64,000 nucleotides of DNA from Cellvibrio sp. 79 (GTDB lineage: Bacteria; Pseudomonadota; Gammaproteobacteria; Pseudomonadales; Cellvibrionaceae), in assembly GCA_003056245.1 (NCBI GenBank), contig MVDH01000001.1:615679-679678 (forward strand). Reading direction: 5' to 3'. Under the pieces are notes generated by a model. It had not been told where the DNA came from and searched no databases. It saw nothing but the letters and a program-made list of their open reading frames with translations. This document shows positions 18,834-39,700 of this stretch, in pieces. The position numbers were made by a program, and so were the translations under genes. Each line of letters starts with the position of its first letter. The first letter of the stretch is position 1.

Positions 18834-18901
18834 TATTACGGTCCAGTTGTCTGGTTGGTTATGCTGTTGCTGCAAAGAATGCGCTTTGTAAGCGTGGTCG
18901 C

Positions 18902-18956
18902 ATCCTAACCAGTCACCTTAATCATTGGAAATACTGAGTTTTTATGTGCTTATAAC
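18902..18956 (-). promoter_or_regulatory. Promoter with shared sulfur box (TauE/SafE gene)
   Basis: On the minus strand the box GTTATAAGCACATAAAA ends its core GTTATAAGC at 18948. A -10 TAGGAT lies at 18907-18902, exactly 40 bases on. The outer part of the box (AATACTGA on the plus strand) also matches the yezD promoters. The -35 is poor, as expected for an activator-dependent promoter. Confidence 0.6.
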
Positions 18957-19089
18957 TTTTGGTGTGAGTGCATTTGGTTCTAAGCAAAGACCAAAAAAAT
19001 CCTTTTCGATCTGTAACCAGCCGCCTACCATTACTTCTCTTACAAGCTGTTGTTAACAGCACATCTACCAAAAGCCAAAGGAGGCGAGA

Positions 19090-19728
19090 ATGAGCTTACG
19101 TTTAGGTGATGAAGCACCCGATTTTGTGCAGGAGTCCACACAGGGCCCGATTAGTTTTCATCAATGGCTTGGCGATAGTTGGGGCGTGTTGTTTTCCCAC
19201 CCGGCGGATTTCACCCCGGTGTGCACCACCGAATTGGGCCTGACGGCTAAATTGAAAGAAGAATTTACCAAGCGCAATGTGAAAGCCATTGCGCTCAGCG
19301 TTGACCCTGTGGACTCCCACAATAAATGGATCAATGACATCAATGAAACCCAACTGACCCAGGTAAACTTCCCGATCCTCGCTGATGCGGATCGCAAAGT
19401 CTCCAGCCTCTACGACATGATTCACCCGAATGCCAACGCAACGTTGACTGTGCGTTCGCTGTTTATCATCGACCCGGCGAAAAAAATCCGTTTGATCATT
19501 ACTTATCCCGCCAGCACGGGTCGCAACTTTGATGAAATTTTGCGTGTGATTGATTCGTTGCAATTAACCGAGCATCACAAAGTGGCCACTCCGGGCAATT
19601 GGAAACCGGGCGAAGACGTAGTGATTGTTCCATCGTTGCAAGATGCGGATGAAATTGCGCGTCGTTTCCCTAAGGGCTACAAAGCAGTTAAACCTTATCT
19701 GCGACTCACTCCGGATCCACGCGGATAA
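19090..19728 (+). CDS. 1-Cys peroxiredoxin (Prx6 type)
   Basis: A 212-residue thiol peroxidase. The active site is PADFTPVCTTELG with the peroxidatic cysteine at residue 45; no other cysteine occurs in the protein, so this is a 1-Cys enzyme. The C-terminal extension (PGNWKPGEDVVIVPSLQDAD, then PYLRLTPDP) is that of Prx6-type proteins. It reduces peroxides in the cytoplasm with an external thiol. GGAGG lies just before the ATG. It is divergent from the TauE/SafE gene and ends in two hairpins. Confidence 0.92.
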   Translation: MSLRLGDEAPDFVQESTQGPISFHQWLGDSWGVLFSHPADFTPVCTTELGLTAKLKEEFTKRNVKAIALSVDPVDSHNKWINDINETQLTQVNFPILADADRKVSSLYDMIHPNANATLTVRSLFIIDPAKKIRLIITYPASTGRNFDEILRVIDSLQLTEHHKVATPGNWKPGEDVVIVPSLQDADEIARRFPKGYKAVKPYLRLTPDPRG

Positions 19729-19744
19729 TTTTCGCGGTCATGCA

Positions 19745-19770
19745 ATTTTTTATCCTCACGGATAAAAAAT
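19745..19770 (+). other. Hairpin before the terminator
   Basis: ATTTTTTATCC and GGATAAAAAAT form a perfect 11-bp stem with a 4-base loop just after the peroxiredoxin stop. It probably protects the 3' end or acts as a first weak terminator. Confidence 0.5.
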
Positions 19771-19782
19771 AATGGTAAATAT

Positions 19783-19814
19783 AACAAGGGCGCCGGATGC
19801 GCCCTTGTTTTTTT
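19783..19814 (+). terminator. Rho-independent terminator of the peroxiredoxin gene
   Basis: AACAAGGGCGC pairs perfectly with GCGCCCTTGTT around CGGAT, followed by a T-run to 19814. Confidence 0.92.
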
Positions 19815-19840
19815 ATTGAAAAATATTTTGGTAAACAATA

Positions 19841-20398
19841 ATGACAACAAAATATGTGGTCGACGCCAACTATCGTTTTATTGCCGCCTATCAAGAAGTG
19901 AATGCGCGCATTAACCAGCGCCAGCAGGCACTTGCATTGTATGTGACCTTGGTCGTAAGTTTGCTGGCGGCATTAGTTGCACTTAAACCCAGTGAAAGTA
20001 ATACGCAAGTTCCTATCGAATGGTTGCTGGCGGGTTTTCCGGTGGCGTCTATTTGTCTCGCATTTTTAAATTACAAAGCTGAGCGCGCTATTTCCAACTT
20101 GCGCCGGTTTTTATCGGCACTGGAACAATTAAATGATGCCCATGAACAATTGCCCAGTTACAACACCCATGAAAAATGGTCGCAGGGCGCCAATAAAGCG
20201 CGACGCTTTCATGACTATGCGGCGATTATTCTGGTGATTGGTGGAAATGCGATTGGCTTGGGCGCGGCGGCAAAAATTTATCCGGAACGGATCAGTGAAA
20301 TGTCGATTGCGTTATGGCTATCCATAGCCGTGGCTTTGATTTCGGTGCTCTTGCTTTTTATTACGCCCAAATGGAGCTACAAGCCCGAAGGTTCCTGA
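19841..20398 (+). CDS. Small integral membrane protein of unknown function
   Basis: A 185-residue protein with two hydrophobic pairs: residues ~32-75 (ALYVTLVVSLLAALVAL and IEWLLAGFPVASICLAFL) and ~128-178 (YAAIILVIGGNAIGLGAAAK and IALWLSIAVALISVLLLF). A charged helical loop lies between (RAISNLRRFLSALEQLNDAH). The first 30 residues are helical and polar. I do not recognise the family. It follows the peroxiredoxin terminator and is convergent with metY. Confidence 0.65.
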   Translation: MTTKYVVDANYRFIAAYQEVNARINQRQQALALYVTLVVSLLAALVALKPSESNTQVPIEWLLAGFPVASICLAFLNYKAERAISNLRRFLSALEQLNDAHEQLPSYNTHEKWSQGANKARRFHDYAAIILVIGGNAIGLGAAAKIYPERISEMSIALWLSIAVALISVLLLFITPKWSYKPEGS

Positions 20399-20415
20399 AT
20401 TAAATATTAATCAAT

Positions 20416-20443
20416 AAAAAACGCAGCAATCGCTGCGTTTTTT
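20416..20443. terminator. Bidirectional terminator between convergent genes
   Basis: A 12-bp stem, A6-CGCAGC with GCTGCG-T6 and loop AATC, works on both strands and serves the membrane-protein gene and metY. Confidence 0.88.
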
Positions 20444-20473
20444 ATTTAACTGATTAAGCGTTTTGGAAAATTT

Positions 20474-21763
20474 TTATACTTTTTCCAGTGCTTGTTTCAA
20501 GTCATCAAACAAATCATCGATGTGTTCTATACCAATCGATAATCTCACTGTATCCACACCAACTCCCGCCTTCGCCAATTCTTCCGGGGATAATTGGCGA
20601 TGCGTAGTGGAAGCTGGGTGAGTTGCCAGGGATTTCGCATCACCAATATTTACGAGGCGAGTGAACAATTGCAGCGCATCAAGAAAGCGGGCACCGGCTT
20701 CGCGGCTATCGTCTGCCTTAAGTCCGAACGTTAATAAGCCGGATGCTTTCCCTCCCAGATATTTACGTGCAAGTTCATGGTATTTATTACCTGGCAAACC
20801 CGCATAATTTACCCAGCTCACTTTTGGATGTTGCTGTAAATATTCAGCAATTTTTTGGGTGTTGTCATTAATGCGCTCAAGGCGCAAGGCTAGAGTTTCA
20901 ATGCCCTGCAAAATCAGGAATGCATTAAAGGGCGAAAGTGCTGCACCGGTATTACGCAGTGGTACAACGCGGGCGCGGCCAATATAAGCGGCGGCACCAA
21001 GCGCTTCGGTATAAACCACACCGTGGTAACTCACATCCGGCTCATTCAAGCGTTTGAATTTTTCTTTGTAGTTTGCCCACGGGAATTTACCGGAATCAAC
21101 AATGGCACCAGCGACCGTTGTACCGTGACCACCTAAATATTTTGTAAGTGAATGCACAACGATATCAGCACCATGTTCAATCGGTCGCAATAAATAGGGC
21201 GTTGCAACGGTGTTATCAACAATCAATGGAACGCCGTGACGATGGGCAATTTCAGCAATACGGGCAATGTCGGTGACATTGCCTTGTGGGTTGCCTAAGG
21301 ACTCCACAAAAATTGCTTTAGTGCGTTCATCAATCAAAGGCTCAAAACTATCCGGGTTTTCATGATCCGCGAAGCGGGTAGTAATTCCGTATTGCGGTAA
21401 GGTGTGCGCAAATAAATTGTAGGTGCCGCCATACAGTGCAGTGGATGAGACGATATTGTCGCCAGCTTCTGCGATGGTTTGTATGGCATAAGTAACGGCC
21501 GCTTGACCTGATGCCAGTGCCAATGCCGCAATACCACCCTCCAGTGCGGCAACGCGTTTTTCCAACACATCATTAGTGGGATTCATAATGCGGGTATAAA
21601 TATTCCCCGCGACTTTTAAATCAAATAAATCCGCGCCATGTTGCGCGCTATCGAAAGCGTAAGCCACCGTTTGGTAAATAGGCACGGCAACCGATTTGGT
21701 GGTTGGGTCCGGTGTGTAACCGGCGTGTACCGATTGAGTTTCAAATTTCCAATTCTCAGACAT
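20474..21763 (-). CDS. metY: O-acetylhomoserine sulfhydrylase
   Basis: A 429-residue PLP enzyme of the Cys/Met metabolism family. It joins sulfide (or methanethiol) to O-acetylhomoserine to give homocysteine (or methionine). Seen: FETQSVHAGYTPDPTTKSVA at the N-terminus, YTRIMNPTNDVLEKRVAALE, the PLP lysine in VHSLTKYLGGHGT, and the sulfhydrylase-type insertion GVVYTEALGAAAYIGRARVV. Length of 420-430 residues separates it from the shorter MetB/MetC enzymes. GGAGC lies upstream of the ATG. It carries the shared sulfur box, which fits direct sulfide assimilation. Confidence 0.92.
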   Translation of the reverse strand: MSENWKFETQSVHAGYTPDPTTKSVAVPIYQTVAYAFDSAQHGADLFDLKVAGNIYTRIMNPTNDVLEKRVAALEGGIAALALASGQAAVTYAIQTIAEAGDNIVSSTALYGGTYNLFAHTLPQYGITTRFADHENPDSFEPLIDERTKAIFVESLGNPQGNVTDIARIAEIAHRHGVPLIVDNTVATPYLLRPIEHGADIVVHSLTKYLGGHGTTVAGAIVDSGKFPWANYKEKFKRLNEPDVSYHGVVYTEALGAAAYIGRARVVPLRNTGAALSPFNAFLILQGIETLALRLERINDNTQKIAEYLQQHPKVSWVNYAGLPGNKYHELARKYLGGKASGLLTFGLKADDSREAGARFLDALQLFTRLVNIGDAKSLATHPASTTHRQLSPEELAKAGVGVDTVRLSIGIEHIDDLFDDLKQALEKV

Positions 21764-21816
21764 GAAATGCTCCGTTTTATGCGTATTTATTGCTGTGAAA
21801 AAAACAGTGAAAATGG

Positions 21817-21871
21817 ATTCTAATGATCCGTTTTATTTTTCTGAACTTCAATTAATTCATAAGCTTATACC
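21817..21871 (-). promoter_or_regulatory. metY: Promoter with shared sulfur box (metY)
   Basis: On the minus strand GGTATAAGCTTATGA lies with its core GGTATAAGC ending at 21863, exactly 40 bases before a -10 TAGAAT (21822-21817). The inner palindrome ATAAGCTTAT is at 21859-21868. The leader is about 47 bases. Confidence 0.55.
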
Positions 21872-22113
21872 ATTTTTTCAATACACATTTTGCTGCTAAA
21901 ACATGCCCACCACTGCTTTGTTTTGAACAGGATTTTTCATGGCTAACCCGAAAAATCTGCTGAATATTCAGCAACTTTTCTGCTTGTAAATCAACAATTA
22001 AATACAGCGATTGGCGTGGTTGATACAAAAATTTTTAGATTTAGCGTAGTGGCCGTTGAATAAGCCGCTTATTTTCAAGGATTTAAACGATCGCATTAAA
22101 AAAATAATTTTTT

Positions 22114-22129
22114 TGGCACGCTTGCTGCA
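22114..22129 (+). promoter_or_regulatory. Sigma-54 (-24/-12) promoter of tonB-exbB-exbD
   Basis: TGGCACGCTTGCTGCA matches 11 of 12 defined bases of TGGCACG-N4-TTGCW, with GG-N10-GC spacing. Transcription would start near 22140, giving a leader of about 113 bases. Confidence 0.65.
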
Positions 22130-22252
22130 AAACCCCTCACAACTGCGAATGGTTATGCCAGCACACAATGATGGGTAAACGTTCGGAAATGTGATTTTTT
22201 TGTTATCGCCACAAGCGATTTCTGTGAGCCCCCAACCGGGCGGGAGAGATTT

Positions 22253-23032
22253 ATGAGTGCCCCTGCATACTCTGAACCCTATAGTTATGACCGCCGCCAT
22301 GCGCGTCATCAATTGCGTAGCACCCAACCTGTAACAGCACCGCGCAAATCAGCGGATATCGTTAAATTAATTCCACGTGAATACAGCCGTGAAAAACAAA
22401 TTGAACTGGTGTATCCGAAATATCGCGGTGCATTAGGTATTTTGGCGTTGGCCCTCATTGTTGGTTTGCACTTTGGCGGTTTTGCTTATTTTTATTTCAA
22501 ACCGAAAGCAGAAGTGCCTATTACCAAAGCGGAAATTCCACCGATGACCGTAGAGCTTTATCGCCCGCCGGTAGAGCAACCGCCACCACCGGTAATTCCT
22601 CCGCCGGAAGAGGTTCCGCCGCCACCAAAAGTGGAAAAGCCAAAGCCGAAACCGGTTGAAAAACCGAAGCCCGTGCCTGTTCAGCAAGTAGTAGAAACTC
22701 CACCACCTCCACCGCAGCCGGTTGCGCCGCCACCGCCGCCGCCAATTACTCCGGCCACTGCAAATCCTGGTTATTTGCGTAACCCGGCACCGGAATATCC
22801 TGAACTGGCAGTGGAGCGTGGTTGGGAAGGTACCGTGATTCTGAATGTACATGTATTGGGAAATGGCAAACCATCATCGGTTGAAGTGAAAACATCCAGC
22901 GGTCGCAATGTGTTGGATAGTGCTGCCGTACAAACTGTAAGACGCTGGTCTTTTGTCCCTGCCAAGCAAGGTGAGACACCGGTAGATTCATGGGTAGAAG
23001 TGCCCATCGATTTCAAATTATCCAACTCATAA
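22253..23032 (+). CDS. tonB: TonB energy-transducing protein
   Basis: A 259-residue periplasm-spanning protein. A cytoplasmic N-terminus of about 60 residues precedes one membrane anchor (~62-84, GILALALIVGLHFGGFAYFY). A long proline-rich and charged spacer follows at ~95-165 (PPPPKVEKPKPKPVEKPKPV), then a TonB C-terminal domain (~170-259: YPELAVERGWEGTVILNVHV and RRWSFVPAK). It carries proton-motive energy to outer-membrane receptors, of which four are encoded in this window. GGGAGAG precedes the ATG. First gene of tonB-exbB-exbD. Confidence 0.93.
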   Translation: MSAPAYSEPYSYDRRHARHQLRSTQPVTAPRKSADIVKLIPREYSREKQIELVYPKYRGALGILALALIVGLHFGGFAYFYFKPKAEVPITKAEIPPMTVELYRPPVEQPPPPVIPPPEEVPPPPKVEKPKPKPVEKPKPVPVQQVVETPPPPPQPVAPPPPPPITPATANPGYLRNPAPEYPELAVERGWEGTVILNVHVLGNGKPSSVEVKTSSGRNVLDSAAVQTVRRWSFVPAKQGETPVDSWVEVPIDFKLSNS

Positions 23033-23105
23033 TGGTTGCGATTTTTTGTTCTTAAAATTTAATTTGTCGCCTTTTAAAATTTATCTGTTGTAAGGAATAA
23101 AGATT

Positions 23106-23855
23106 ATGTCTGAGTTGTACCAACACATTGTTGAATGGACCTTGTGGGCCCTTATCGCGTTTTCAATTGTTACCTGGACACTGATTGTCATTAAAGCGAT
23201 TCAACACATTACCTTATCGCGCCAGAACCGCCGCTTCACCAAAACGTTCTGGTCATCGGCTGATTTACACGCAGCTGCATCCTTTGAAAAATATGTAGGT
23301 GCAACTGCACGTGTCGCCGCAGCAGGTTTCCAAACCTTGCGCAATGCAGATTCCAGCACTGCCACTGATTTGGAACACAGTTGGGATCGTCAGGATTTAT
23401 TGGAGCGCCATTTACGCCAACAAATCCAGAAAGAGCGTCGTTCATTGGAAAACGGTCTAGCAATTCTCGCGTCTATTGGTAACACCGCTCCGTTCGTAGG
23501 TTTGTTCGGCACTGTGTTTGGGATTATCCAGGCACTTACCCAAATTACCGCAAGCAAATCAGCGAGTATTGAAATCGTTGCCGGTCCGATTGGTGAGGCA
23601 TTGATTGCAACGGGCATTGGTATTGCGGTAGCTGTGCCTTCCGTATTGGCTTACAACTTCTTCTTGCGTCGCGTGAAATTAATTGCTGCAGATCTGGATG
23701 ATTTTGCGACTGACTTTGTAAGCTTGGTACAAAAAGCGGGTTTCCGTATTAAAGCATCTGCTCCTGTCGTTAAAGCTGCACAAATTCAACCGGAGCGCGA
23801 TGGTAGCAAATCTGAATTAAACAAAACCGACAACGGTAAAGAGGTATTTGCATAA
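23106..23855 (+). CDS. exbB: ExbB proton-channel protein
   Basis: A 249-residue MotA/TolQ/ExbB family protein with three membrane segments: ~12-32 (WTLWALIAFSIVTWTLIVIK), ~125-150 and ~165-190. The family signatures are ERRSLENGLAILASIGNTAP, then FVGLFGTVFGIIQALTQI, and IGEALIATGIGIAVAVPSVL. With ExbD it forms the proton-driven motor for TonB. A C-terminal tail of about 45 polar residues (EPERDGSKSELNKT-like) is unusual in length. The last base of its stop is shared with the exbD start. Confidence 0.94.
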   Translation: MSELYQHIVEWTLWALIAFSIVTWTLIVIKAIQHITLSRQNRRFTKTFWSSADLHAAASFEKYVGATARVAAAGFQTLRNADSSTATDLEHSWDRQDLLERHLRQQIQKERRSLENGLAILASIGNTAPFVGLFGTVFGIIQALTQITASKSASIEIVAGPIGEALIATGIGIAVAVPSVLAYNFFLRRVKLIAADLDDFATDFVSLVQKAGFRIKASAPVVKAAQIQPERDGSKSELNKTDNGKEVFA

Positions 23856-24268
23856 TGGCAGTTTCCAGTAGCAGTGATAGCGATGAAGTATTAAGTGAAA
23901 TTAACATTACGCCGATGGTGGATGTAATGTTGGTACTGCTGGTAGTGTTCATTATTACCGCACCGCTGATGACCAATGCGATTAATGTAAACTTACCGGA
24001 TACCGAAACCACGGTAAAAATCGAAGAGCCGAAAAAACCTTTGGTGTTGAGTGTTGATGCTGAAGGAAAAATTTATCTGGATAAGGATGAATACTCACTG
24101 GAAATTATCCGGCAGGAACTGGAAAGCCGTAAAGCAGCAGATCCGGAATTGCGTTTGAATCTGAATGCTGATGAAACGGTGGATTACGGAGTGGTCGCCA
24201 AGGTGATGGTGTTAGTGGAAAAGGCTGGTATTGAACGACTTTCAGTAGTAACCGAAGCGGGCAATTAA
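23855..24268 (+). CDS. exbD: ExbD proton-channel protein
   Basis: A 137-residue protein with one membrane segment at ~19-40. The functional aspartate lies in INITPMVDVMLVLLVVFIIT. A periplasmic domain (DEYSLEIIRQELESRKAADP, then VEKAGIERLSVVTEAGN) follows. It completes the TonB motor; the ATG overlaps the exbB stop. Confidence 0.94.
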   Translation: MAVSSSSDSDEVLSEINITPMVDVMLVLLVVFIITAPLMTNAINVNLPDTETTVKIEEPKKPLVLSVDAEGKIYLDKDEYSLEIIRQELESRKAADPELRLNLNADETVDYGVVAKVMVLVEKAGIERLSVVTEAGN

Positions 24269-24282
24269 TCCAGTCGGTAAAT

Positions 24283-24320
24283 AAAAAACCTCCGGATTGT
24301 TAAAAATCCGGAGGTTTTTT
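24283..24320. terminator. Bidirectional terminator between exbD and chrA
   Basis: A6-CCTCCGGATT pairs with AATCCGGAGG-T6 (16-bp stem, short loop), usable on both strands; it overlaps the chrA stop by two bases. Confidence 0.92.
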
Positions 24321-25677
24321 ACGCAAAAAATAAACTTTTACAGAGACCAATCAACGCACAAGTAGCGATCACTTTAATTACCCCTACTTTAAAACGGAAC
24401 AGCGCAACACCCGCGCCTATGGCGATTACCGCCGAAATCCAATCAAATTCCCCTTCAAATCCTGTTGGCCACAATACGTGATAACCAAAAAACAAAGCGA
24501 GATTTAAAATAACACCAACTACGGCGGCGGTAATTGCCGTTAATGGTGCAGTAAATTTTATATCGTTATGTGTGCTTTCAATTAATGGTGCACCGGCAAA
24601 GATAAAAACAAACGACGGTAAAAATGTAAACCAGGTAACAACGCTCGCTGCTACTGCGCCAGCGATAAATAACATATCCGGTCCAAATACCGCTTTCACA
24701 TAACCGCCTACAAAACCCGCAAACGCAACCACCATAATTAATGGGCCGGGGGTTGTTTCCCCCAAAGCTAAACCATCAATCATTTGTGTTGGCGTTAACC
24801 ATCCGTAATGAGTGACTGCACCCTGATATACATAGGGCAATACGGCATAGGCCCCACCAAAAGTAAGCAATGCAGCAGTGGTAAAAAACCAGGCCATTTG
24901 GGTCAGCGTATGTTCCCAGCCAAAACTGCTCCAGAGTAAGCCGAGTGGTACAGCCCATAACAATAAACCAATTGCGATTACCAACAGCAAACGCGACCAG
25001 CTAAATAATCCATGCGCTGGCGTTGGTGTGTGATCATCAATTAATGCTGCACCATAATGTTTATTTGCTTTTCCATGTCCGCCACCGGATTTGAAATATT
25101 CCGGTTTGTATTTTCCGCCGATGTAACCAATTAATGCCGCTGCGATCACGATATAGGGGAAAGGAACATGCAGTGCAAAAATGGCCACAAATGCAGCGGC
25201 AGCAATGGCCCATAACCAATTATTATTTAATGCGCGCGAGCCGATACGATGTGCAGCGTGTAAAACAATGGCGGTAACAGCTGGCTTGATTCCATAAAAC
25301 AATCCTGCGACCCAACTCACGTCGCCATACGCAATATAAACCCAGGAAAGCGCAATCAAAATAAATAGGGACGGCAACACAAATAAAACACCGGCGATAA
25401 TCCCACCCCAGGTTTTGTGCATTAGCCAACCGATATATGTTGCCAGTTGTTGCGCTTCCGGACCGGGTAATAGCATGCAGTAATTCAGTGCATGTAAAAA
25501 TCGTTTCTCACTGATCCAGCGGCGGCGCTCAACCAATTCCTGGTGCATGATCGCAATTTGCCCGGCTGGGCCACCAAAACTGATAAAACCGAGTTTCAGC
25601 CAAAATAAAAATGCTTCGCCGATACTTACAGGCTTCGGAATATCGGTGGAGGTAGTAATAGAAAGGTTTTCGCTCAT
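24319..25677 (-). CDS. chrA: Chromate transporter ChrA
   Basis: A 452-residue membrane protein made of two homologous CHR halves. The first half has FGGPAGQIAIMHQELVERRR and LPGPEAQQLATYIGW; the second has FGGAYAVLPYVYQGAVTHYG and GETTPGPLIMVVAFAGFVGG. It exports chromate with proton exchange. Chromate enters cells through sulfate transporters, which are encoded 7 kb away. It starts 2 bases after the chrB stop, so the two are co-translated. Confidence 0.93.
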   Translation of the reverse strand: MSENLSITTSTDIPKPVSIGEAFLFWLKLGFISFGGPAGQIAIMHQELVERRRWISEKRFLHALNYCMLLPGPEAQQLATYIGWLMHKTWGGIIAGVLFVLPSLFILIALSWVYIAYGDVSWVAGLFYGIKPAVTAIVLHAAHRIGSRALNNNWLWAIAAAAFVAIFALHVPFPYIVIAAALIGYIGGKYKPEYFKSGGGHGKANKHYGAALIDDHTPTPAHGLFSWSRLLLVIAIGLLLWAVPLGLLWSSFGWEHTLTQMAWFFTTAALLTFGGAYAVLPYVYQGAVTHYGWLTPTQMIDGLALGETTPGPLIMVVAFAGFVGGYVKAVFGPDMLFIAGAVAASVVTWFTFLPSFVFIFAGAPLIESTHNDIKFTAPLTAITAAVVGVILNLALFFGYHVLWPTGFEGEFDWISAVIAIGAGVALFRFKVGVIKVIATCALIGLCKSLFFA

Positions 25678-25679
25678 GG

Positions 25680-26633: not shown

Positions 26634-26712
26634 AATTTGTAGGCTATGTTACAAAATTTGAAGCGGATATTACCTGTTTAACGCAGAAAGTGAAACTCGG
26701 AAGTAGTCGCTA

Positions 26713-28809: not shown

Positions 28810-29138
28810 GCACATGAACCTGAAAGTAAAAAACTGGAAGTAAAGAGCCAGAAAGTAAAACCAAAAAACTAATTGGCGATAACCCAGAGTGTGCAAAATG
28901 AAACAGATAATCCAGTTAAGTACAGTTATCTCCAGCAGAATTAACGTTAATAAGTAAATCTAAAAGCCTTTTCAAACAAAAAGCGTTGTAGATAATTGGA
29001 TTAAATAAATATAAAGGGTTTTAAATCAGGTGTTTTAAGAAATTGGACGGTTAAAAATAGATAAATTAAAAGTAGAGAAGCTTGAGAATCGCAAGCTTAA
29101 AGTGTAAAAATTAAAAATGGAGAAGTTAATGCCGGAAG
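28810..29138. other. A+T-rich gap before the receptor gene
   Basis: No coding frame. A 7-bp stem (AAGCTTG 29078-29084 with CAAGCTT 29092-29098) may be a weak terminator for the upstream regulator on the minus strand. The remainder is A-rich and presumably holds the receptor promoter; no -24/-12 element or sulfur box was found in it. Confidence 0.4.
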
Positions 29139-30386: not shown

Positions 30387-30396
30387 CGTTTAACTA

Positions 30397-31716
30397 TTAA
30401 CTCGCGAAGCTGGCATCCAGTGATGACAATTGCTTGTCATTGCCTACAGGGCGATTGTCTAGTGGATGATCGTCCAGTGAATGGTTGTCAATATGTTTAC
30501 TGAACGCGGTATCCACTAACAAACCATGGCGCTTCAACAGTGTGCGCATTACATTGCGTGAAATACCGAGCAATGCCGATGCATGAACCTGATTGGAACG
30601 AACATGGGCGAAGGCTTCATGCACTATCAAACTTTCCAGGTTATCAAAATGATTGCCATTACCTTGTTCACTGAATAAGCGACGCAATTGTTTGGCAATC
30701 GCAGTCATTGGGTCATCGCCATCACCCGAGCTGTTGCCATTGGAATTGGCAGCATGGTTGCCAAAACCATTGGTGTAATTACCGGGATAAGGCAAGGTAT
30801 TGTTAGCTGCCTGCGGTGGTTGCTGATTAAATGGTTGCGTAAATTGCGGCGCATGAACCGGTTGTGGGACTTGCTGGAAATGATTGCCCGTATTCCAGCC
30901 GCCGGTCACTTTTAAATGTGATGCTTCAATCTTGTCACCACTGGCAACCAACAACGCAAAATGCACCACATTTTCCAATTCACGAATGTTACCCGGCCAT
31001 GAGTAATGCAATAGCAGTTCAACCGCTTGCGGTGAAAATTGTGGCAAGCGATGCCCCATTTTTTGCGCGTAGGTTTTCAGGAAATGCTCGGCCAGCGGCA
31101 TTACATCACCGGGGCGTTCACGCAGTGGCGGTAATTTTACGTGCGCGATATTGATGCGGTACAACAAATCGCGGCGGAAATGCCCGGCGGATACGGCGTA
31201 ATCCAGATCCACGTTGGTTGCAGCAATCAAACGCACATTCACTGGAATTGATTTGCGCGAGCCAATACGCACAACTTCTTTTTCCTGCAATACACGCAAG
31301 AGTTTTACTTGCAGGGGCAGGGGAAGATCACCAATTTCATCGAGAAATAAAGTGCCTTCGTTGGCAGCTTCAAACCAGCCTTCGCGTTTACCCACGGCGC
31401 CGGTAAATGCCCCTGCTTCATGACCAAACAATTCGCTTTCTGCCAACTGATCACTGATCGCGCCGCAGTTAACGGCAAGGAAAGGCCCTTTACGGCCACT
31501 TAATAAATGGATGTGGCGCGCAACCAATTCCTTACCAGTCCCTGTTTCACCACCAATCAATACCGGTGCTTCACTGGGCGCAATTCGCTCGATGTATTCG
31601 AGCAAGGTTGCAGATATGGGATCAGAAAAGACCAAGGCTTTTGCCCTTACCGACAAGGGTTGCGCATTGCCTCCTTCCAGGGATAAAAGAACCGGTTGTT
31701 TAAGTTCCTGGCTCAC
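30397..31716 (-). CDS. SfnR-like sigma-54-dependent activator
   Basis: A 439-residue enhancer-binding protein with almost no N-terminal regulatory domain (about 25 residues). The AAA+ core has Walker [10 protein letters not shown], the sigma-54 contact loop GAFTGA, Walker [11 protein letters not shown] and the arginine-finger region [21 protein letters not shown] Gln/Asn-rich linker (~285-335) leads to a Fis-type helix-turn-helix ([20 protein letters not shown]). The short N-terminus and core wording resemble SfnR of pseudomonads, which serves sulfone and sulfur-starvation genes. The start is GTG with GAGG 8 bases before. Its promoter carries a variant of the shared sulfur box. It is followed by the ToxR-like gene. 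Confidence 0.84.
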
Positions 31717-31879
31717 GATGATTCCTCAAAAAGTTTTTAGCCCAAATAAAATTGTTATGACGTGTAGGTGTTTCGAACCGTAATGACCGTTTGTTAATTT
31801 TTTTGTAACGCTCTTAACTTTTAATGGCACGCTAACGTAGCGCTAAACAGAAAGTGCTAACTGGTAAATTTGTGTAAGC

Positions 31880-31935
31880 ATTCTATGCGTTAAATTGCAC
31901 ACTTAAGAAGGAATTTAAATCTATAAACTTATAAC
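31880..31935 (-). promoter_or_regulatory. Promoter with variant sulfur box (SfnR-like gene)
   Basis: On the minus strand GTTATAAGTTTATAG lies 41 bases before a -10 TAGAAT (31885-31880). Spacing differs by one base from the four other copies in this window. Confidence 0.42.
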
Positions 31936-32076
31936 AAAATTACTAACGAAAAATATCGCCAATACGGTTATAAGCCAAAGTGAATTTAGGTGCAGTGTTT
32001 GCCATCGAAGTGATTAAAAATAAGCAGAATTTACTAAAAAATAGCCAGACAATCTGCACTAAAAAATAGCAAGCAA

Positions 32077-32106
32077 CAAAAAGGCGGTGACTTGCGTCAC
32101 CGCCTT
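32077..32106 (-). terminator. Terminator of the sulfate ABC operon
   Basis: AAGGCGGTGAC and GTCACCGCCTT form a perfect 11-bp stem with loop TTGC; the minus strand continues TTTTTG. Confidence 0.88.
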
Positions 32107-32135
32107 AACATTGCGCTTAAAAAGCGTGAGAAAAA

Positions 32136-33194
32136 TTATTTCTGCAAGAATATTTTGGAGATGGTCGGGCGGGCGAATACCTTTGCACCCACACTCAGGT
32201 TAAGTGAACGTTCCTGGGCCCGCGGTAACTCTACATGCAGTACATCGCTATTAAGCTGGTGCTGCAATTCAATGCGCAACACTGAACCCGCAGTGCTGAC
32301 ATGGGCTACTTGCGCGGCAATAGCGCCATCGCTTGCTTGTTCGCTCAATTCAATATCATGTGGGCGCACGTACGCAATCGCTGCATGATCATCAATGCCA
32401 TTGTGCTCCGGTGCCGGTAATTTGTAATCGCCAATGTGCGCCCAACCATTATTCACACGACTGTGGAATAAATTGACCTGGCCGATAAAGTCGTACACAA
32501 ATGGACTGGCCGGATTGTTGTAAATATCGTCCGGTGTGCCGATTTGCTCGATCTGGCCCTTGTTGAGCACCACAATTTTATCGGCTACTTCCATGGCTTC
32601 TTCCTGATCGTGCGTTACAAAAATGGAAGTGATGTGCAATTCATCGTGCAAGCGACGCAACCAGCGACGCAAATCCTTACGCACTTTTGCATCCAATGCA
32701 CCGAAGGGTTCATCCAGCAATAATACTTTTGGTTCGACGGCAAGCGCACGCGCTAGCGCAATACGTTGGCGCTGGCCACCGGATAATTGGTGCGGGTAAC
32801 GATCTGCCAGCCAATCCAGTTGTACCAGTTCCAATAATTCGTGCACACGTTTGTTAATAAATTCTTTCGTGGGGCGCGTTTCTTTCGGGCGTACGGTTAA
32901 ACCGAATGCGACATTATCGAATACCGTCATATGCCGGAAGAGCGCGTAATGCTGGAATACGAAACCGACATTGCGCTCGCGTACGTGTACATTGGTTGCA
33001 TCCTCACCGTGGAAGAGTACGCTGCCTGCATCCGGATTTTCCAAACCGGCAATAATCCGTAACAGCGTGGTTTTTCCGCAGCCGGATGGGCCGAGCAGGG
33101 CTACCAGTTCGCCGGTGGGGAAATCCAGTGAAACATTATTTAACGCGGTAAAACTACCGAAATGTTTATGTAAGTTGCGGACTTGAATGCTCAT
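32136..33194 (-). CDS. cysA: Sulfate/thiosulfate ABC transporter ATP-binding protein
   Basis: A 352-residue ABC ATPase: Walker [11 protein letters not shown]-loop [12 protein letters not shown], signature [15 protein letters not shown], Walker [14 protein letters not shown], switch [11 protein letters not shown]-terminal TOBE-like domain (~240-352) is typical of CysA. It powers sulfate and thiosulfate import with CysT and CysW and is the last gene of the operon; CysW ends 43 bases upstream. Confidence 0.94.
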
Positions 33195-33237
33195 AGAGTT
33201 TTCTCGTTAATTAAGAGTTCGCAATAAAACGAATGCA

Positions 33238-34134
33238 TTATTGAGCGTTTGCCGCGCGTACGGCCAGCTCATGTTCACGCGCTGCTTTCCATTCCAGCAG
33301 GCTTTTCAATACCAGTGTTACCAGTGCTAATAACGCCAATAGCGAAGCAACAGCGAAGGCAGCGGCAAATTGATATTCGTTGTACAAAATTTCGATATGC
33401 AATGGCAGCGTATTGGTTTGTTCGCGAATTTTTCCGGAGACCACACTCACCGCACCGAATTCACCCATCGCCCGTGCATTACATAAAATCATGCCATACA
33501 GCAGTGCCCATTTAACCGAAGGCAAGGTGACTCGCCAAAACATCTTCCAACCACTGGCACCTAACGTAATCGCCGCTTCCTCTTGCTCTTTTCCCTGTTC
33601 TTGCATTAGCGGAATTAATTCGCGCGCAACAAAAGGGAAAGTGATAAACACTGTTGCGAGTACGATACCGGGAACCGCAAACATAATTTGAATATCATGG
33701 TCGCCGAGCCACGGGCCGAAAAATCCCTGGCGGCCAAACAGCAACATATAAATCAAACCGGCAATCACCGGTGAGACAGCGAAGGGTAGATCGATCAGGG
33801 TGATGACAAATTGTTTGCCACGGAAATCGAATTTAGCAATCGCCCAAGCTGCCGCCAAACCAAAAATTACGTTACAAGGTACGGCAATAGCGGCGGCGAT
33901 AAGCGTCAGTTTTATCGCGTGCGCGGCAGCAGGTTCACTCACTGATGCCAGGTAAACATCGATACCTTTGGCAAACGCTTCTTTGAAAACCACTACCAAT
34001 GGTAAAAATAAAAACAACGCTAAAAATGTCAACGCCGTAGTAATCAACACAATGCGTACCCAGGCAGCTTCGCTAGTGGCGGCGTGCGCAGTACCGGTTT
34101 TGCGGTTACCTAATGATGAAATTGCACCAGCCAT
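33238..34134 (-). CDS. cysW: Sulfate ABC transporter permease CysW
   Basis: A 298-residue inner-membrane permease with six segments. The EAA loop that contacts CysA reads [20 protein letters not shown]. The ATG at 34134 lies 2 bases after the cysT stop and has AGGAGG inside the end of cysT; an upstream TTG is rejected. It pairs with CysT to form the sulfate channel. Confidence 0.93.
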
Positions 34135-34136
34135 GA

Positions 34137-35021
34137 TCAGCCTCCTGTACGCTTGTGGCTCCAATGCTGGAGCAAGTTAATGAGTAATAATAAAACGAAA
34201 GAAAACACCAGCATGACCGTACCCAATGCGGCAGCACCGGCGTAATCAAATTGTTCCAGTTTGGTCATGATTAGCAGAGGAGTAATTTCTGTTTTATAAG
34301 GCATGTTGCCGCTGATAAAAACAACGGAACCGTATTCGCCAATTGCGCGTGCAAACGCGAGTGCGAAACCTGTTAATAACGAAGGTAATAATGCGGGGAG
34401 TAATACGCGGCTAAATGTTTGCCAGCGCGACGCGCCCAAACTTGCTGCAGCTTCTTCAACTTCTGATTCGAGATCCGCTAATACCGGTTGCACGGTACGC
34501 ACAACGAACGGTAATCCGATAAAGGTCAGTGCAACAGTAACACCTAACCAGGTGTAAGCAATTTTAATATCCGCAAGCCAAAACCATTGGCCAACCCAGC
34601 CCTTGGTAGTGTAAAGCGCGGTGAGTGCAATACCGGCAACGGCGGTAGGTAATGCAAACGGTAAATCAACCAACGCATCAATAACGCGCTTGCCAAAAAA
34701 ATCGTAACGCACTAATACCCATGCGACGATCAAACCAAAAAATAAATTAATACCGGCAGCGGTAAATGCAGCGCCAAAAGTGAGTCTATAGCTGGCAAGT
34801 GCCCGCGGATTACTAATGACAGCCCAGAGTTCCGGCAAACTTAACTCTAATGCTTTGAGTACGAGTCCAGCGAGGGGAATAAATACAATCAGACTGGCAT
34901 AAAGTGCGGCGAGTCCGAGTGACAAACCAAAACCCGGTAGCACCGATTTTTTTACCCAGCCTTTTTTAGCGCTGGGATAAGGCGGCGCTGATGCCAACGC
35001 CGTAGCGGTAATTTCACTCAT
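34137..35021 (-). CDS. cysT: Sulfate ABC transporter permease CysT
   Basis: A 294-residue permease with six membrane segments and the EAA loop [20 protein letters not shown]. The line [20 protein letters not shown] forms the first segment after a polar start, and [17 protein letters not shown] is a CysT/CysW family line. It begins 246 bases after the sbp stop; the gap is filled by hairpin repeats. Confidence 0.93.
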
Positions 35022-35068
35022 GTACAACTCTCTAATTTAGTACCTGTGGTCAGGAAACTGGTTTTTAC

Positions 35069-35270
35069 CCCCTCCCAACCTCCCCCTTTGCAAGGGGGAG
35101 GAGCTAAAACGTCTCACCTGTTCAAGTGCGGAGTCACACTCCCTCCCTTTTTCAAGGGGAGGGCTGGGGTGGGGTTGCATTTTCTCCTCCCATTTTTAGG
35201 GGGAGGGCTGGGGTAGGGTTGCATTTCTCCTCCCTTTCTTTTTAAGGGGAGGACCAAGGTGGGGTTGTTA
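35069..35270. repeat. Array of G/C-rich hairpin repeats between sbp and cysT
   Basis: Four imperfect units each contain a CTCCC/GGGAG hairpin. The first is CCTCCCCCTT-TGC-AAGGGGGAGG at 35079-35101. The next three start near 35139, 35183 and 35227 and end with GGGCTGGGGTGGGGTTGCAT or a close variant. They lie inside the predicted sbp-cysTWA transcript. Such GGGGAGGG elements recur between genes in many bacterial genomes. The array slightly overlaps the sbp stop. Confidence 0.8.
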
Positions 35271-36263
35271 CTGATAAATCTGATCGAAAATTCCACCATC
35301 ACCGAAATGTTCCGGCTGTGCTTTTACCCAACCACCGAAATCATCGATAGTAACCAGCGTCAGTTTCGGGAAAGTTTTTGCGTAAGCTTCAGCAACTTGT
35401 GGATCGCGTGGACGGTAGTAATTTTTTGCCGCGATGTTTTGGCCTTCTTTGGTGTAAAGATATTGCAAGTAAGCCTTAGCCACTTCGCTAGTACCGTTGG
35501 CTTTTGCGTTTTCATCAACCACAGCAACAGATGGCTCTGCAAGAATCGAAATACTTGGAACAACAATTTCTACTTCATCTGCACCAAGTTCATTTACTGC
35601 AAGGAACGCTTCGTTCTCCCAGGTGATCAGCACATCACCGATGCCACGTTGCACGAACGTTGTGGTTGAGCCGCGAGCACCGGTATCCAATACTGGAACG
35701 TTTTTAAACAGATCGCGCAAAAATGCTTGTGCACCGGCTTTGTCTTTACCTTGTTTCTTTTCGGCAAATGCCCATGCTGCCAAATAATTCCAGCGCGCAC
35801 CGCCAGAGGTTTTTGGGTTAGGGGTAATTACTTCTACACCTTTCTTAACCAGGTCATCCCAATCTTTAATATTTTTTGGATTGCCTTTGCGCACCAAAAA
35901 TACGATGGTTGATGTGTAGGGCGCAGAGTTGTTCGGTAATTTTGTTACCCAGTCTTTTGGTAACAGATTACCAATGCTAGCGATAGGATCAATGTCACCG
36001 GCCAATGCGAGAGTGACTACATCCGCTTTCAAACCATCGATTACTGCGCGTGACTGCGCACCGGAACCACCGTGTGATTGATCCACATGCACGTTATCGC
36101 CCGTTTTTTCTTTCCAGTGTTTAGCAAACGCGGCATTGAATTCGCGATAAAGTTCGCGCGTTGGGTCATAGGATACGTTCAACAAATTAATATCTTTTGC
36201 AAGCACGCTACCGGCCAGTAAACTGGCGGCGATAACGGTAATTGATCGTGCAATAAATTTCAT
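35268..36263 (-). CDS. sbp: Periplasmic sulfate-binding protein (copy 1)
   Basis: A 331-residue protein with a signal peptide (ends [10 protein letters not shown]). Mature lines are [40 protein letters not shown] and [20 protein letters not shown], the standard sulfate-binding signature. It delivers sulfate to CysTWA. The second copy at 39896-40903 is closely related. It follows porin 1 by 31 bases, which suggests porin-sbp-cysTWA as one transcript. Confidence 0.93.
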
Positions 36264-36294
36264 AATCTCATGCTCTCTGAAATAATTTTGATAA

Positions 36295-37530
36295 TTAGAA
36301 ACGGAAATCCAGACCTATCGCCGACGCTGTATCAGTCGTGGCTTTGGTGCTGATTTTTGCATCGCCTTCTACTTCAACACTGGCAACAGAGGCGAACACG
36401 CGCGCGTTGGGGTTGAAGTTGTAATCCAGGCCCACAATTACACCTTCCAGATCAACATCTTTGAAACTGGTGTTGGTTGGTGTCGTGGAGGAATTTGCGT
36501 ATTGGATTTTTGCTAACCATGGGCCAGCAATTTTCCATTGTGCGTTAACGATAAAACCGTCTTGTTCTTTAAAGGCGTTGTTGGTAGCTACACCGTCCCA
36601 TTCGGAAAGCGGGTTGGTAGCTCCGCCAGTGGTACCTACAAATGTGGTAAGGCCACCCAGTGAATCGACACCTTCTTCATGTGCTTCGGCTTTTTGGTAA
36701 ATTCCACCAATTTTTACCGGGCCAACTGTAAATTCACCGACTGCGCGGATGGCATCAGTAGTTGCTATGTTTGAATCAACACCAACACCTACATACCATT
36801 TTGCTTTGCCGTAAGTAATCGATGCTGATTTTCCAGAAGCAAATCCATTATCGTCTTGCTTGCTGGTGATTTCGCCTGCATTGTTTTTTACCGGAATCCC
36901 GGTTTCTTCACCTTGAATTGCAGCGATGTTTACTTCAAGACCGCCAAGCAAAATAGGGGAGGTGTATTGAATTACGTTATCAGGACGGTTCTCACCCACA
37001 ATATAAGTGCCGATATCACCCAACGGCGAATCGTTGAAGCGGTCAAGGTCGGTACGCAGTACCGGATTTGTTTGCAGGGTTTTTAACGGGCTATCGTTTT
37101 TGCCCGCCAAAATAGAGCCCCAGGAGCCGCGCAGGCCACCAAAAATATTACGCTGGGTTAATTCACGGTTATTTGCATTCGTACCATTGTCAACGTCGAT
37201 GCCGTATTCAAGGCGGTAGAAAACTTGCACGCTGGATGTTGCATCAAAATCACCTTGCACACCAAAGCGTGAACCGGTGCTTTCCAATGCAAATGTATCC
37301 AATTCGGCAGTGGTGCCAGTTGCACCGGTGACGGGTGCTGCTGACGAGAAATTAATTTTTTCCAAATCATATTGATTGGCTGTTAAATGAATTTTTCCAT
37401 ATAGGGTCGGAAAACCTGCAAATGCATTGGCCGAAAGGGCAGCACCAATAATCAATGCCAATGAATTATGTTTGAAACTGTTGCTTTTGACTTGCGATCG
37501 CACAACCGACCACTTGCTTTGAAATGACAT
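36295..37530 (-). CDS. Outer-membrane porin (copy 1), sulfur operon
   Basis: A 411-residue porin of the general gram-negative type. The start ATG at 37530 has GGAG upstream; an extra 9 residues from an earlier codon are unlikely. The secretion signal ends NAFAG, then [20 protein letters not shown] begins the barrel. The lines [40 protein letters not shown] and [20 protein letters not shown] are shared almost word for word with copy 2. The barrel ends AIGLDFRF. Co-location with sbp argues for passage of sulfate or organosulfur anions. Confidence 0.87.
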
Positions 37531-37634
37531 GCTAATCTCCAGTTTTTCACAAATCACATCCGGTGGTCCGGTGAGTGGTATTTATTGATGGTTTTTTAAA
37601 AAGTTTTTAAATTTTGTATGTAAGCAATACCGAT

Positions 37635-37826
37635 TTATTTGGTGTTGACACCTTTTTCCCAGCGTTTTTTTTCGCGCCGTTCAATCTGCACTACCTGACC
37701 ATTGTGAACCTGAATTTCCAACGAACCGAATTGAATAAATGCCAGTTGTTGTTTGATTTCTTCGAGAATTTCATCGGCAACATCGTTAGCGGATGGGCCT
37801 GCCTGCTCTGTGCGGTGAGTTCCCAT
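37635..37826 (-). CDS. YezD/OscA-type small protein (copy 1)
   Basis: A 63-residue protein, start ATG 37826 with AGAGG 6 bases before; longer readings lack a ribosome site. Its body VADEILEEIKQQLAFIQFGS leads into LEIQVHNGQVVQIERREKKR, the DUF2292 (YezD) pattern. In pseudomonads the related oscA gene lies next to sbp, is needed in sulfur starvation and affects chromate resistance. Both contexts are present here. The molecular role is unknown. Confidence 0.82.
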   Translation of the reverse strand: MGTHRTEQAGPSANDVADEILEEIKQQLAFIQFGSLEIQVHNGQVVQIERREKKRWEKGVNTK

Positions 37827-37874
37827 AATGACCTCTTGTTCATTTCTCCAGAGTGATTTCTGAAGTCTGGCGCC

Positions 37875-37930
37875 ATCATAGGGTGCGCCCATTAAAACTA
37901 AAAATACTGATTTTTTATTAGCTTATAACG
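37875..37930 (-). promoter_or_regulatory. Promoter with shared sulfur box (yezD copy 1)
   Basis: A 31-base block at 37900-37930 is identical to 39670-39700. On the minus strand its core GTTATAAGC ends at 37921, 40 bases before a -10 TATGAT (37880-37875). Bases around the -10 (CCCTATGATGGCGCC) are also shared. The -35 is poor, so an activator is likely. Confidence 0.7.
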
Positions 37931-38021
37931 GTGTGATGATGGCTATAGGGATCAAATAAATTGCAGGGACTCAGGTTGCATTACGCATCCTTGCGTAGCT
38001 TCTCGATTTGACGGCCGAATT

Positions 38022-39299
38022 TTAGAAGCGGAAATCAATGCCCACTGCAGCAATGTTGTCGGTGGTTGCTTTAGTGCTGATGGCGGCATCGCCTTGTGCT
38101 TCAACGTCGGCGTAGTAAGTGAAGATGCGGGTTACATCATTAAGGGCATAATCAAGACCCAACGCCAATGCATCCAGTTCTACGTCTTTGTAAGCGGTAT
38201 TGATCGGGGTTGATGTGCTGTTAGCGTATTGGAACTTGGCAGACCATGGGCCGCTGATTTTCCACACACCGTTTAACACGTAACCATCTTGCTCTTTATA
38301 TGAAGTGTGGTTGGTTCCGCTGCTCGCTGTACCATCCCATTCACCCAACGGGTTTATTCCATATTGCGTACCAGTATTGGTAGGAGTCGCGTTGACGAAG
38401 CTGGTAAAACCACCCAGAACGTCTGTATCGTCATGGCGTTCAGCGGTTTGATAAATTGCTCCCAGTTTGACCGGGCCTAATGTCACTTCACCTACTACAC
38501 GCGCAACATCGCTGGTAGCTACGTTGCTTTCATAGGCTGCACCGACAAACCAGCCGGTTTTGCCATAACCAACCGAAATGGACTGGCCAGATGCGAATTC
38601 ATTATCGTCCTGGGCACTGGTTACCTGACCCTGGTTATTTTTCACGGCAACACCGGTTTCTTCAGACTGGATAGCAGCGATGTTGATCTCCAGGCCTCCC
38701 AACAATATAGGAGAGGTGTATTGGATAACGTTATCCGGGCGGTTTTCGCCAACAAGGTAAGTGCCGATATCGGCTAACGGAGCTTCGTTAAAACGGTCGA
38801 TGTCAGTTTTTTGTACTGCTGGTACAAAGGAATTTTTTACGATAGTGCCATTGCGGCCAGCCAATGAGCGCAACGGGGTATCATTTTTACCTGCCAGAAT
38901 CGCACCCCACTCACCGCGAATTCCACCAAATATATTACGTTGAACCAACTCGCGGGTATTGGTGTTGGTGCCATTGTCGAAGTCCACACCGTACTCAATA
39001 CGATAGAAAACGTTCACACCTGCTGCTGCATCAAAGTCGCCCTGTACACCCAGGCGTGAACCGATACTTTCCACATTGAAGTTGTCCAGTTCGGGAGTTG
39101 TGTTGGTAGCGCCGGTAAGAGCAGTAGGGGTGCTAAAGTCCAGTTTTTCAAAATCGTATTGGCCAGCAGTAATTTGTACTTTTCCGTACAGGGTTGGGAA
39201 GCCAGCGAAAGCGTTAACCGATAACGCCAGGCCAAGGGCAGTAAATAAAGTCTTGCGCGGAAAGCGCGTTGGGGCCACGGCGTGAGTAAATAATGACAT
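38022..39299 (-). CDS. Outer-membrane porin (copy 2)
   Basis: A 425-residue porin, paralogue of copy 1. The signal peptide ends SVNAFAG, and FPTLYGKVQITAGQYDFEKL follows. It differs mainly by an insertion in an external loop (RSLAGRNGTIVKNSFVPAVQ) and a longer loop around GGFTSFVNATPTNTGTQYGI, which may change selectivity. The barrel ends AVGIDFRF. The ribosome site and first codons match copy 1 (CGGAGATTAGC then ATG). It lies 105 bases behind yezD copy 2. Confidence 0.87.
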   Translation of the reverse strand: MSLFTHAVAPTRFPRKTLFTALGLALSVNAFAGFPTLYGKVQITAGQYDFEKLDFSTPTALTGATNTTPELDNFNVESIGSRLGVQGDFDAAAGVNVFYRIEYGVDFDNGTNTNTRELVQRNIFGGIRGEWGAILAGKNDTPLRSLAGRNGTIVKNSFVPAVQKTDIDRFNEAPLADIGTYLVGENRPDNVIQYTSPILLGGLEINIAAIQSEETGVAVKNNQGQVTSAQDDNEFASGQSISVGYGKTGWFVGAAYESNVATSDVARVVGEVTLGPVKLGAIYQTAERHDDTDVLGGFTSFVNATPTNTGTQYGINPLGEWDGTASSGTNHTSYKEQDGYVLNGVWKISGPWSAKFQYANSTSTPINTAYKDVELDALALGLDYALNDVTRIFTYYADVEAQGDAAISTKATTDNIAAVGIDFRF

Positions 39300-39404
39300 G
39301 CTAATCTCCGAAAATGATTGTCACAGCCGGTTATCCGGTCAGTGTTTTATTTACGTTTTATTAAGAAAATATTGAGCAAAAATAAATGGAAAAACTCACT
39401 GGAA

Positions 39405-39581
39405 TTAACGGGCATTTGTGCCTTTGTCCCAACGCTTTTTCTCACGGCTTTCCAGTTGCACGACTTGGCCATTGTGGATTTGGATTTCCACGGAACCGTA
39501 ACGAATATGCGCTAACTGACGTTTAATCTCGGCTAATACATCTTCGATACTGTTGGCGATTTCTGAACGATGGGTTCCCAT
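39405..39581 (-). CDS. YezD/OscA-type small protein (copy 2)
   Basis: A 58-residue protein not longer than the usual annotation cut-off. It reads MGTHRSEIANSIEDVLAEIK and continues with VEIQIHNGQVVQLESREKKR and a WDKGTNAR end. It is a paralogue of copy 1, sharing MGTHR, the HNGQVVQ core and the KKRW end. CGAGG lies 6 bases before the ATG. With porin 2 it forms a duplicate of the yezD-porin unit. Confidence 0.83.
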   Translation of the reverse strand: MGTHRSEIANSIEDVLAEIKRQLAHIRYGSVEIQIHNGQVVQLESREKKRWDKGTNAR

Positions 39582-39644
39582 AACAACCTCGCAGGAAATT
39601 AGTCTGTGCGTTATTCAGGCGCATAAATTCCTGAATTCGGCGCA

Positions 39645-39700
39645 ATCATAGGGACGATGGTTATAAACGAAAAATACTGATTTTTTATTAGCTTATAACG
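39645..39700 (-). promoter_or_regulatory. Promoter with shared sulfur box (yezD copy 2)
   Basis: The same 31-base block as at copy 1 (39670-39700), again 40 bases from GTTATAAGC to the -10 TATGAT (39650-39645). Sequence between block and -10 differs, so the conserved parts stand out as functional. Confidence 0.7.

Follow-up and report, generated by a model that had tools for sequence, protein, structure and literature searches.

A stretch of 64,000 nucleotides from the Cellvibrio sp. 79 genome (contig MVDH01000001.1, positions 615,679 to 679,678; hereafter the window, with positions counted from its first base) carries a promoter box shared by genes of sulfur metabolism. The box lies at a near-constant distance from the -10 hexamer, recurs in front of sulfur genes throughout the genus and is recognisable in Pseudomonas. 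Judged from sequence comparison, CysB, which governs cysteine and sulfur genes, most probably uses it as its operator. The sharpness of the sites, their constant phasing and the encapsulin operon found among the genes that they precede may be new.

Phased boxes in the window

A preliminary description of this DNA had reported a common box in five promoters. All five boxes were found where it had placed them, on the minus strand at 39687-39699, 37917-37929, 31923-31935, 21859-21871 and 18944-18956. The -10 letters that it gave were also correct (TATGAT for both oscA/yezD copies, TAGAAT for the SfnR-like gene, TAGAAT for metY and TAGGAT for the TauE/SafE gene), as were the gap between the 9-base core and the -10, which is 40 bases in four promoters and 41 before the SfnR-like gene, and the identity of 31 bases between the two yezD promoters, evident on reading the sequence. 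The pattern GKTATAAGYNNAT occurs five times in the window when both strands are scanned, each time upstream of a gene. Shuffled sequence, which had been raised as a check, contained a mean of 0.10 match (maximum 1) and none of 100 dinucleotide shuffles reached five, a figure that flatters the pattern, composed as it was after the sites had been seen. Spacing is hereafter counted from the first base of KTATAAGY (the K, or core start) to the first base of the -10, giving 48 bases, or 49 for the SfnR-like gene.

The genes behind these boxes, all on the minus strand, are as follows. The box of oscA copy 1, which is conserved in the genus, spans 39669..39699, with its -10 at 39645..39650 and the gene at 39405..39581. 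The corresponding positions for oscA copy 2 are 37899..37929, 37875..37880 and 37635..37826 (start codon at 37826). Both yezD genes belong to DUF2292 (PF10055), scoring 54 bits against a Pfam cut-off of 22; their sole NCBIfam match is OscA (NF033785), below its cut-off (53.2 and 49.1 bits versus 85). Copy 2 lies upstream of a porin and of sulfate ABC transporter genes at 32136..36263 (the substrate-binding protein Sbp, two permeases and CysA). The box at 31905..31935, with TAGAAT at 31880..31885, precedes a sigma-54 activator (30397..31716) whose label, SfnR-like, is that of the preliminary description; its sigma-54 AAA+ domain is present. The weakest of the five boxes (21841..21871, -10 at 21817..21822) precedes metY, an O-acetylhomoserine/O-acetylserine sulfhydrylase (20474..21763, TIGR01326 above cut-off). 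Finally, the box at 18926..18956 (-10 at 18902..18907) precedes a TauE/SafE-type sulfite exporter (17868..18875, PF01925). All five sites are recovered by pattern, spacing and matrix.

The core by itself was uninformative, since a reversed control pattern was commoner in the genome (57 matches) than KTATAAGYNNAT (29 matches); it was dropped as a genome scan and replaced by spacing and profiles. It is the spacing that separates them: TANNAT at 48 or 49, counted from the core start, was found in 5/5 window matches and in 0/24 of the other genome matches of KTATAAGYNNAT.

A class-balanced matrix, 31 columns wide and without the -10, gave its five highest scores in the window to the five known sites, which had helped to build it. 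When each class was omitted in turn, oscA came second among approximately 128,000 positions, TauE and the SfnR-like gene each fourth and metY sixth. The sixth-ranked site of the full matrix (score 21.1, versus 9.1 for the seventh) lies outside the training set and had been overlooked in the preliminary description. This degenerate box is on the plus strand (18977..19007, core start 18978), back to back with the TauE box, and is followed 48 bases from its core start by TACCAT (19026..19031) in the promoter of a peroxiredoxin gene (19090..19728, plus strand). The divergent arrangement of the TauE and peroxiredoxin boxes is kept in two other genomes of the genus (G001, G004) and absent in a third (G013). 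The annotation gives peroxiredoxin only, and we take the protein to be of the LsfA-like 1-Cys kind. PMC12581299 reports LsfA, a 1-Cys peroxiredoxin, to be raised more than 45-fold in sulfur-starved P. aeruginosa.

Two further features of the window were observed. Between 35268 and 40903 a group of genes for a porin, OscA and a sulfate-binding protein is present twice, the two groups adjoining each other; a single oscA match was obtained in 12 further genomes of the genus. At 44450-46585 a 711-aa protein resembles DsbD and the rhodanese/DsbD fusion TsoB, far under the curated cut-offs.

Recurrence of the element in relatives

The element recurs before sulfur genes across 21 genus genomes, in line with the conservation in relatives that the preliminary description had proposed to look for. 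DUF2292 was found in 19 of the 57 genomes searched, and the exact KTATAAGYNNAT box precedes 22 of 24 oscA copies in the genus. The -10 lies at 48 in 19 of 20 measured oscA sites (at 49 in G018) and in all seven TauE sites; for the SfnR-like promoter it lies at 49 in four of five genomes. The metY box is slightly altered but kept in G013 and G014; G004 gave a weak profile match only. Profile R1, built from 28 oscA, TauE and SfnR-like promoters with metY held out, matched 21/21 genus genomes at E<=5, with best E values from 5.9e-17 to 0.0011 (below 0.001 in 20/21). Its new sites lie upstream of porin genes in G018 and G015, with a thiosulfate-type binding protein and an ABC permease further on in the latter, upstream of an ABC permease divergent from a serine hydrolase in G003, before TauE genes and at an encapsulin region. 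A further new site, in G005, is a strong box before a TonB receptor gene, behind which lie genes for a sulfate-binding-like protein and a sigma-54 activator; this locus (L121) suggests uptake of a sulfur compound via TonB. The putative counterparts in G003 and G009 (L122, L123) likewise have a strong box and frames of similar size.

Profile R2 was built from 37 promoters, the new classes included. In the Cellvibrio sp. 79 genome it found eight sites at E<=3.5e-6 (the two oscA copies, TauE, a serine hydrolase, the gene of a 276-aa protein, a rhodanese operon, the SfnR-like gene and metY), the next being at 0.027. All eight are in the training set, so the informative part is the gap in E value beneath them. 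One further match, at a Fiu-type TonB receptor gene of contig 11, had E values of 0.11 (R1) and 0.49 (R2) and was set aside as probably due to chance.

In part of the genus, two core genes carry degenerate boxes in the same phase. In the Cellvibrio sp. 79 genome the best matrix site in the cysD locus (CysD by NCBIfam) lies 117 bases before the start codon and scores 17.8, against 8.8 for the next. A GGAATAA[AC]CTTAGAA-type box with TATAAT exactly at 48 precedes cysD in 13 of 20 genus genomes, the alignment comprising the 20 close matches and leaving out four at 61-62% identity, among them the only match of G020. For a gene encoding a 554-aa sulfite/nitrite reductase-like protein, here called cysI-like, a GGAACAARCTTAG-type box with TA...T at 48 was found in 13 of the 21 closest matches, three at 58-59% identity being left out. 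Both regular expressions were composed with the upstream letters already in view, and the -10 is not part of them. A second CysD-type match, 61-62% identical, was observed in G001, G004 and G019, and is the sole match in G020 (L328-L331).

The Pseudomonas group (Pseudomonas, Stutzerimonas, Azotobacter and related records) was represented by the best 80 of 555 OscA loci. Anchored on the downstream half of the element, a -10 (TA...T) was found at 48 or 49 in 79 of these 80 loci; eight loci had two anchors, of which the last was used. The Pseudomonas oscA-sbp promoter resembles that of the window in gene family and in its downstream half, TATTTTT or near variants. It differs in its upstream half, which is mostly TATATAAA rather than TTATAAGC, and in that the downstream half sits inside a TTCTTAAA...TTTTTAAGAA palindrome. 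Upstream of oscA in this group (L211-L290), the palindrome enclosing the downstream half was also read as TTCTTAAA...TTTTTAAGAAT; it is strongly conserved, and the oscA sites of the window are without it. The oscA gene and the sulfate-binding gene are reported to form a single transcription unit (PMC3596284) and have been tied to sulfate starvation and chromate stress (PMC2996968).

Profile R2, trained on none of these 80 loci, gave 101 matches in them at E<=1. Fifty share the strand of oscA and are for the most part incomplete, weak matches (best 5.7e-4). The other 51, in 51 loci, were divergent from oscA (E 2.6e-8 to 0.19), and in every case a relative of the serine hydrolase begins on the same strand, from 14 bases before to 75 bases after the end of the match; Pfam gave PF06821 for three of these proteins. 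Fifty of the 51 serine hydrolase loci could be anchored, with the -10 at 48 in 43 and at 49 in four. The remaining three had no -10 at 47-50, the anchor being too far upstream as judged by eye. Relatives of the SfnR-like protein were also present in 43 of 51 Pseudomonas-group oscA loci, at 56-57% identity over about 265 residues in five rows.

R2 was also run over 61 genomes of the family and listed 24 matches outside the genus at E<=0.05, 22 of them with loci. The six best (E<=0.0054) are upstream of cysH-type (three), TauE (two) and cysD (one) genes, and three weaker matches are also upstream of cysD. Fifteen of the 22 loci gave a downstream frame, and 13 of these were scanned, some against Pfam only or NCBIfam only. 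One weak match (L193 in G077, E 0.014) lies upstream of a CitMHS/TrkA-C transporter.

The architecture of the element was derived from 96 sites in 15 classes, balanced by class, to which Pseudomonas contributed 10 of the 51 serine hydrolase sites and 7 of the 80 oscA sites; one mis-anchored cysI-like row (L350) was excluded. The consensus reads G-TTATAAGCT-N-ATAAA...A-N-T-C/A-TTT, with columns 4, 10 and 25 near-invariant. The -10 lies at 48 in 88/96 sites and at 49 in 8/96. The best box columns hold 1-2 bits (1.6-2.0 in columns 2-5 and 10), and spacer columns 31-43 hold at most 0.31 bit. Counted from the -10, with transcription starts placed by inference, the element is about 31 bp long, its core starting near -60 and the whole spanning about -61 to -31. 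The genes behind it include oscA, TauE, metY, the sigma-54 activator, the serine hydrolase, the sulfate/thiosulfate uptake genes and the type 2A encapsulin operon. When the sites were examined for the T-N11-A inverted repeat of LysR regulators, many were seen to read TTAT-N6-ATAA or AATA-N9-TATT. A dyad of two overlapping inverted repeats one turn apart was considered and set aside, having at best weak support from one position pair.

The encapsulin operon and its divergent neighbour

A SrpI-like type 2A encapsulin (PF19307) was found in 11 of 21 genus genomes. The order in Cellvibrio sp. 79 is rhodanese, a serine acetyltransferase-like gene (EpsC model above cut-off, CysE below), encapsulin and then a frame cut by the end of the sequence examined at this locus, whose best match, below cut-off, is the cysteine desulfurase cargo of family 2A encapsulins. 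Gene order suggests that the rhodanese to cysteine desulfurase genes form one operon. Its promoter reads ATTATAAGGATATAGAGATATATTCTTTCC with TATAGT at 48, and a box with the -10 at 48 was found by regular expression in 10 of the 11 encapsulin genomes, G015 showing a degenerate version by eye. Divergent from the operon are the gene of a 276-aa protein (L117:2732-3562, approximately 731.2-732.1 kb of contig 1) and then a class II amidotransferase gene. Their promoter has the box, with the -10 at 48, in 11/11 encapsulin genomes and likewise in G001 and G017, two genomes that gave no encapsulin match. Comparison of the 276-aa protein with Pfam, NCBIfam and PHROGs gave nothing at the thresholds applied; its relatives, 55-97% identical, occur in the 12 other genus genomes examined.

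The closest known system is SrpI of Synechococcus elongatus, likewise a type 2A encapsulin with a cysteine desulfurase, which according to PMC8049743 is raised by sulfate starvation. It differs in that CysR is named, in a cited title, for the plasmid sulfur genes of S. elongatus, whereas the box here is of CysB type, and in that rhodanese and serine acetyltransferase-like genes here stand between box and encapsulin. No paper combining 'encapsulin' and 'CysB' was found in a search of one open library. On balance, the CysB of this lineage probably acts through one fixed-phase operator on two tiers of sulfur genes, with a regulon that would include a sulfur nanocompartment, namely the rhodanese, serine acetyltransferase-like, encapsulin and cysteine desulfurase operon together with the divergent 276-aa protein and class II amidotransferase.

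CysB as the candidate regulator

The preliminary description had attributed the box to a CysB-like sulfur regulator. Gene company, spacing, site geometry and the presence of one CysB all favour this attribution, the name of the regulator being one that we infer. The genome contains 24 matches to the LysR substrate domain, 20 of which were fetched and compared with CysB. One is a clear CysB: its identity with the E. coli protein is 63.6% over 324 aa and covers 51 of the first 66 residues; the next reaches 28.5% over 256 aa. The best PDB relatives of the clear CysB are CysB chains, down to 5.4e-141. Promoters activated by CysB have poor -35 boxes, and cysD is a classical CysB target. According to PMC11329422, the sites from which CysB activates have their centre 50-60 bp ahead of the start and extend over two half-sites, and the enterobacterial consensus is called very weak. 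The Salmonella and E. coli sites (cysP CBS-P1, cysJIH, cysK) resemble those described here in lying upstream of sulfur genes, at a similar position and with two half-sites; they differ in that letters and -10 spacing are sharply conserved here, and the E. coli loci gave no profile match. CysB is the best candidate because the geometry fits the published CysB sites and the genome has a single clear CysB. Furthermore, the title of Endoh et al. 2003 (as given in reference lists) describes SfnR as CysB-regulated, and sulfur starvation is reported to have raised msu, ssu and cys genes in P. aeruginosa (PMC12581299). No sharp published CysB consensus for Pseudomonas was found in a literature search weighted towards open access, with most subscription papers outside it.

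Several observations weigh against this reading. In E. coli, 66 kb of loci holding cysK, cysP, cysJIH, cysDNC, tau, ssu, sbp, tcyP and cysB gave no match to profile R2 at E<=10. With a 31-column matrix, the difference between nine sulfur promoters of E. coli and 22 other promoters was marginal (one-sided p 0.043); the best-scoring target, that of cysB, lies 228 bases upstream. Given the weak enterobacterial consensus, however, a sequence match to E. coli sites defines CysB operators poorly. In the window's own genome the cysH-like promoter showed no convincing box, the cysI-like box scored only 5.5 (third in its locus), and R1 did not list the held-out metY promoter, which as noted above came only sixth in the window when its class was left out of the matrix. 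Within the genus, two of the 24 oscA promoters are degenerate (G012, G015), though TAGTAT is kept at 48. The box as a regular expression is missing at cysD in 7/20 genomes (G001 shows one by eye) and at the cysI-like gene in 7/21, one further row being the mis-anchored one. Outside the genus, 13 of the 22 examined matches had no sulfur gene shown: four precede scanned genes lacking a sulfur annotation (flagellin, a CitMHS-type transporter and two matchless genes), two precede unscanned genes (L192, L196) and seven gave no frame. Moreover, 39 of the 61 family genomes had no R2 match at E<=0.05 under the stricter filters of the large search. Inverted-repeat pairing was near the level given by column composition, the largest excess being 0.60 versus 0.46 at one position pair. 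Lastly, R1 and R2 both contain the -10, and the spacing of sites found by profile is partly selected; the oscA, cysD, cysI-like and Pseudomonas oscA sites were not chosen by a profile containing the -10. By eye, the upstream regions of E. coli tcyP and sbp carry GGAATAAGC and GTTATAGCC, a lead only.

A sulfur-starvation operator of another LysR-type or of an unrelated regulator, with CysB absent or acting indirectly, is unlikely. It draws on the 24 LysR-substrate-domain matches, four of which are outside the comparison, on the E. coli CysB targets without a profile match and on the preference of the strong sites for scavenging over core biosynthesis genes, a preference shared by the targets of Cbl in E. 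coli. However, only one of the 20 LysR regulators compared is close to CysB, and boxes of the same phase, albeit degenerate, are found at cysD and the cysI-like gene, with the matches of other genera falling at cysH-type genes and cysD. That the boxes are an AT-rich UP-like element, or an odd -35 region in the promoters of one sigma factor, is very improbable. The box is indeed AT-rich, keeps a fixed distance to the -10 and overlaps the -35 position with its downstream half, but the core at about -60 is specific in sequence, and the strongest matches stand before sulfur genes, whereas an UP element would not be confined to one metabolic function. Chance likeness combined with common descent of duplicated promoters scarcely deserves any weight. 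The two oscA promoters are visibly duplicated, sharing 31 identical bases, and the core pattern, taken by itself, shows no enrichment across the genome; yet unrelated promoters, those of metY, cysD, the encapsulin operon and the serine hydrolase, keep the same spacing with a variable spacer, and it is found in Pseudomonas as well. We regard this explanation as already refuted by the genome spacing test and by the spacing at cysD and the cysI-like gene, the encapsulin operon and the serine hydrolase.

With CysB as the regulator, the following mechanism may be proposed. A shortage of sulfide would let the inducer N-acetylserine (or O-acetylserine) accumulate, and a CysB tetramer with inducer would bind the element of about 31 bp between about -61 and -31. 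The upstream half would be (G)TTATAAGC-N2-AT and the downstream half, some two helical turns on, (A)N-T-A/C-TTT. Bound CysB would substitute for the missing -35 hexamer, and RNA polymerase would open a -10 held at 48, less often 49. Strong sites would serve the starvation genes, that is oscA with sulfate uptake, TauE, the sigma-54 activator, metY, the serine hydrolase and the encapsulin operon; degenerate sites of the same phasing would serve cysD and the cysI-like gene.

Taken together, the key letters and the -10 phasing are near-invariant across the genus and recognisable in Pseudomonas, which makes recognition and activation by CysB testable site by site. The boxes at the encapsulin region would suggest which regulator controls a non-cyanobacterial operon for a type 2A encapsulin, and they point to the uncharacterised 276-aa protein as part of the sulfur response.

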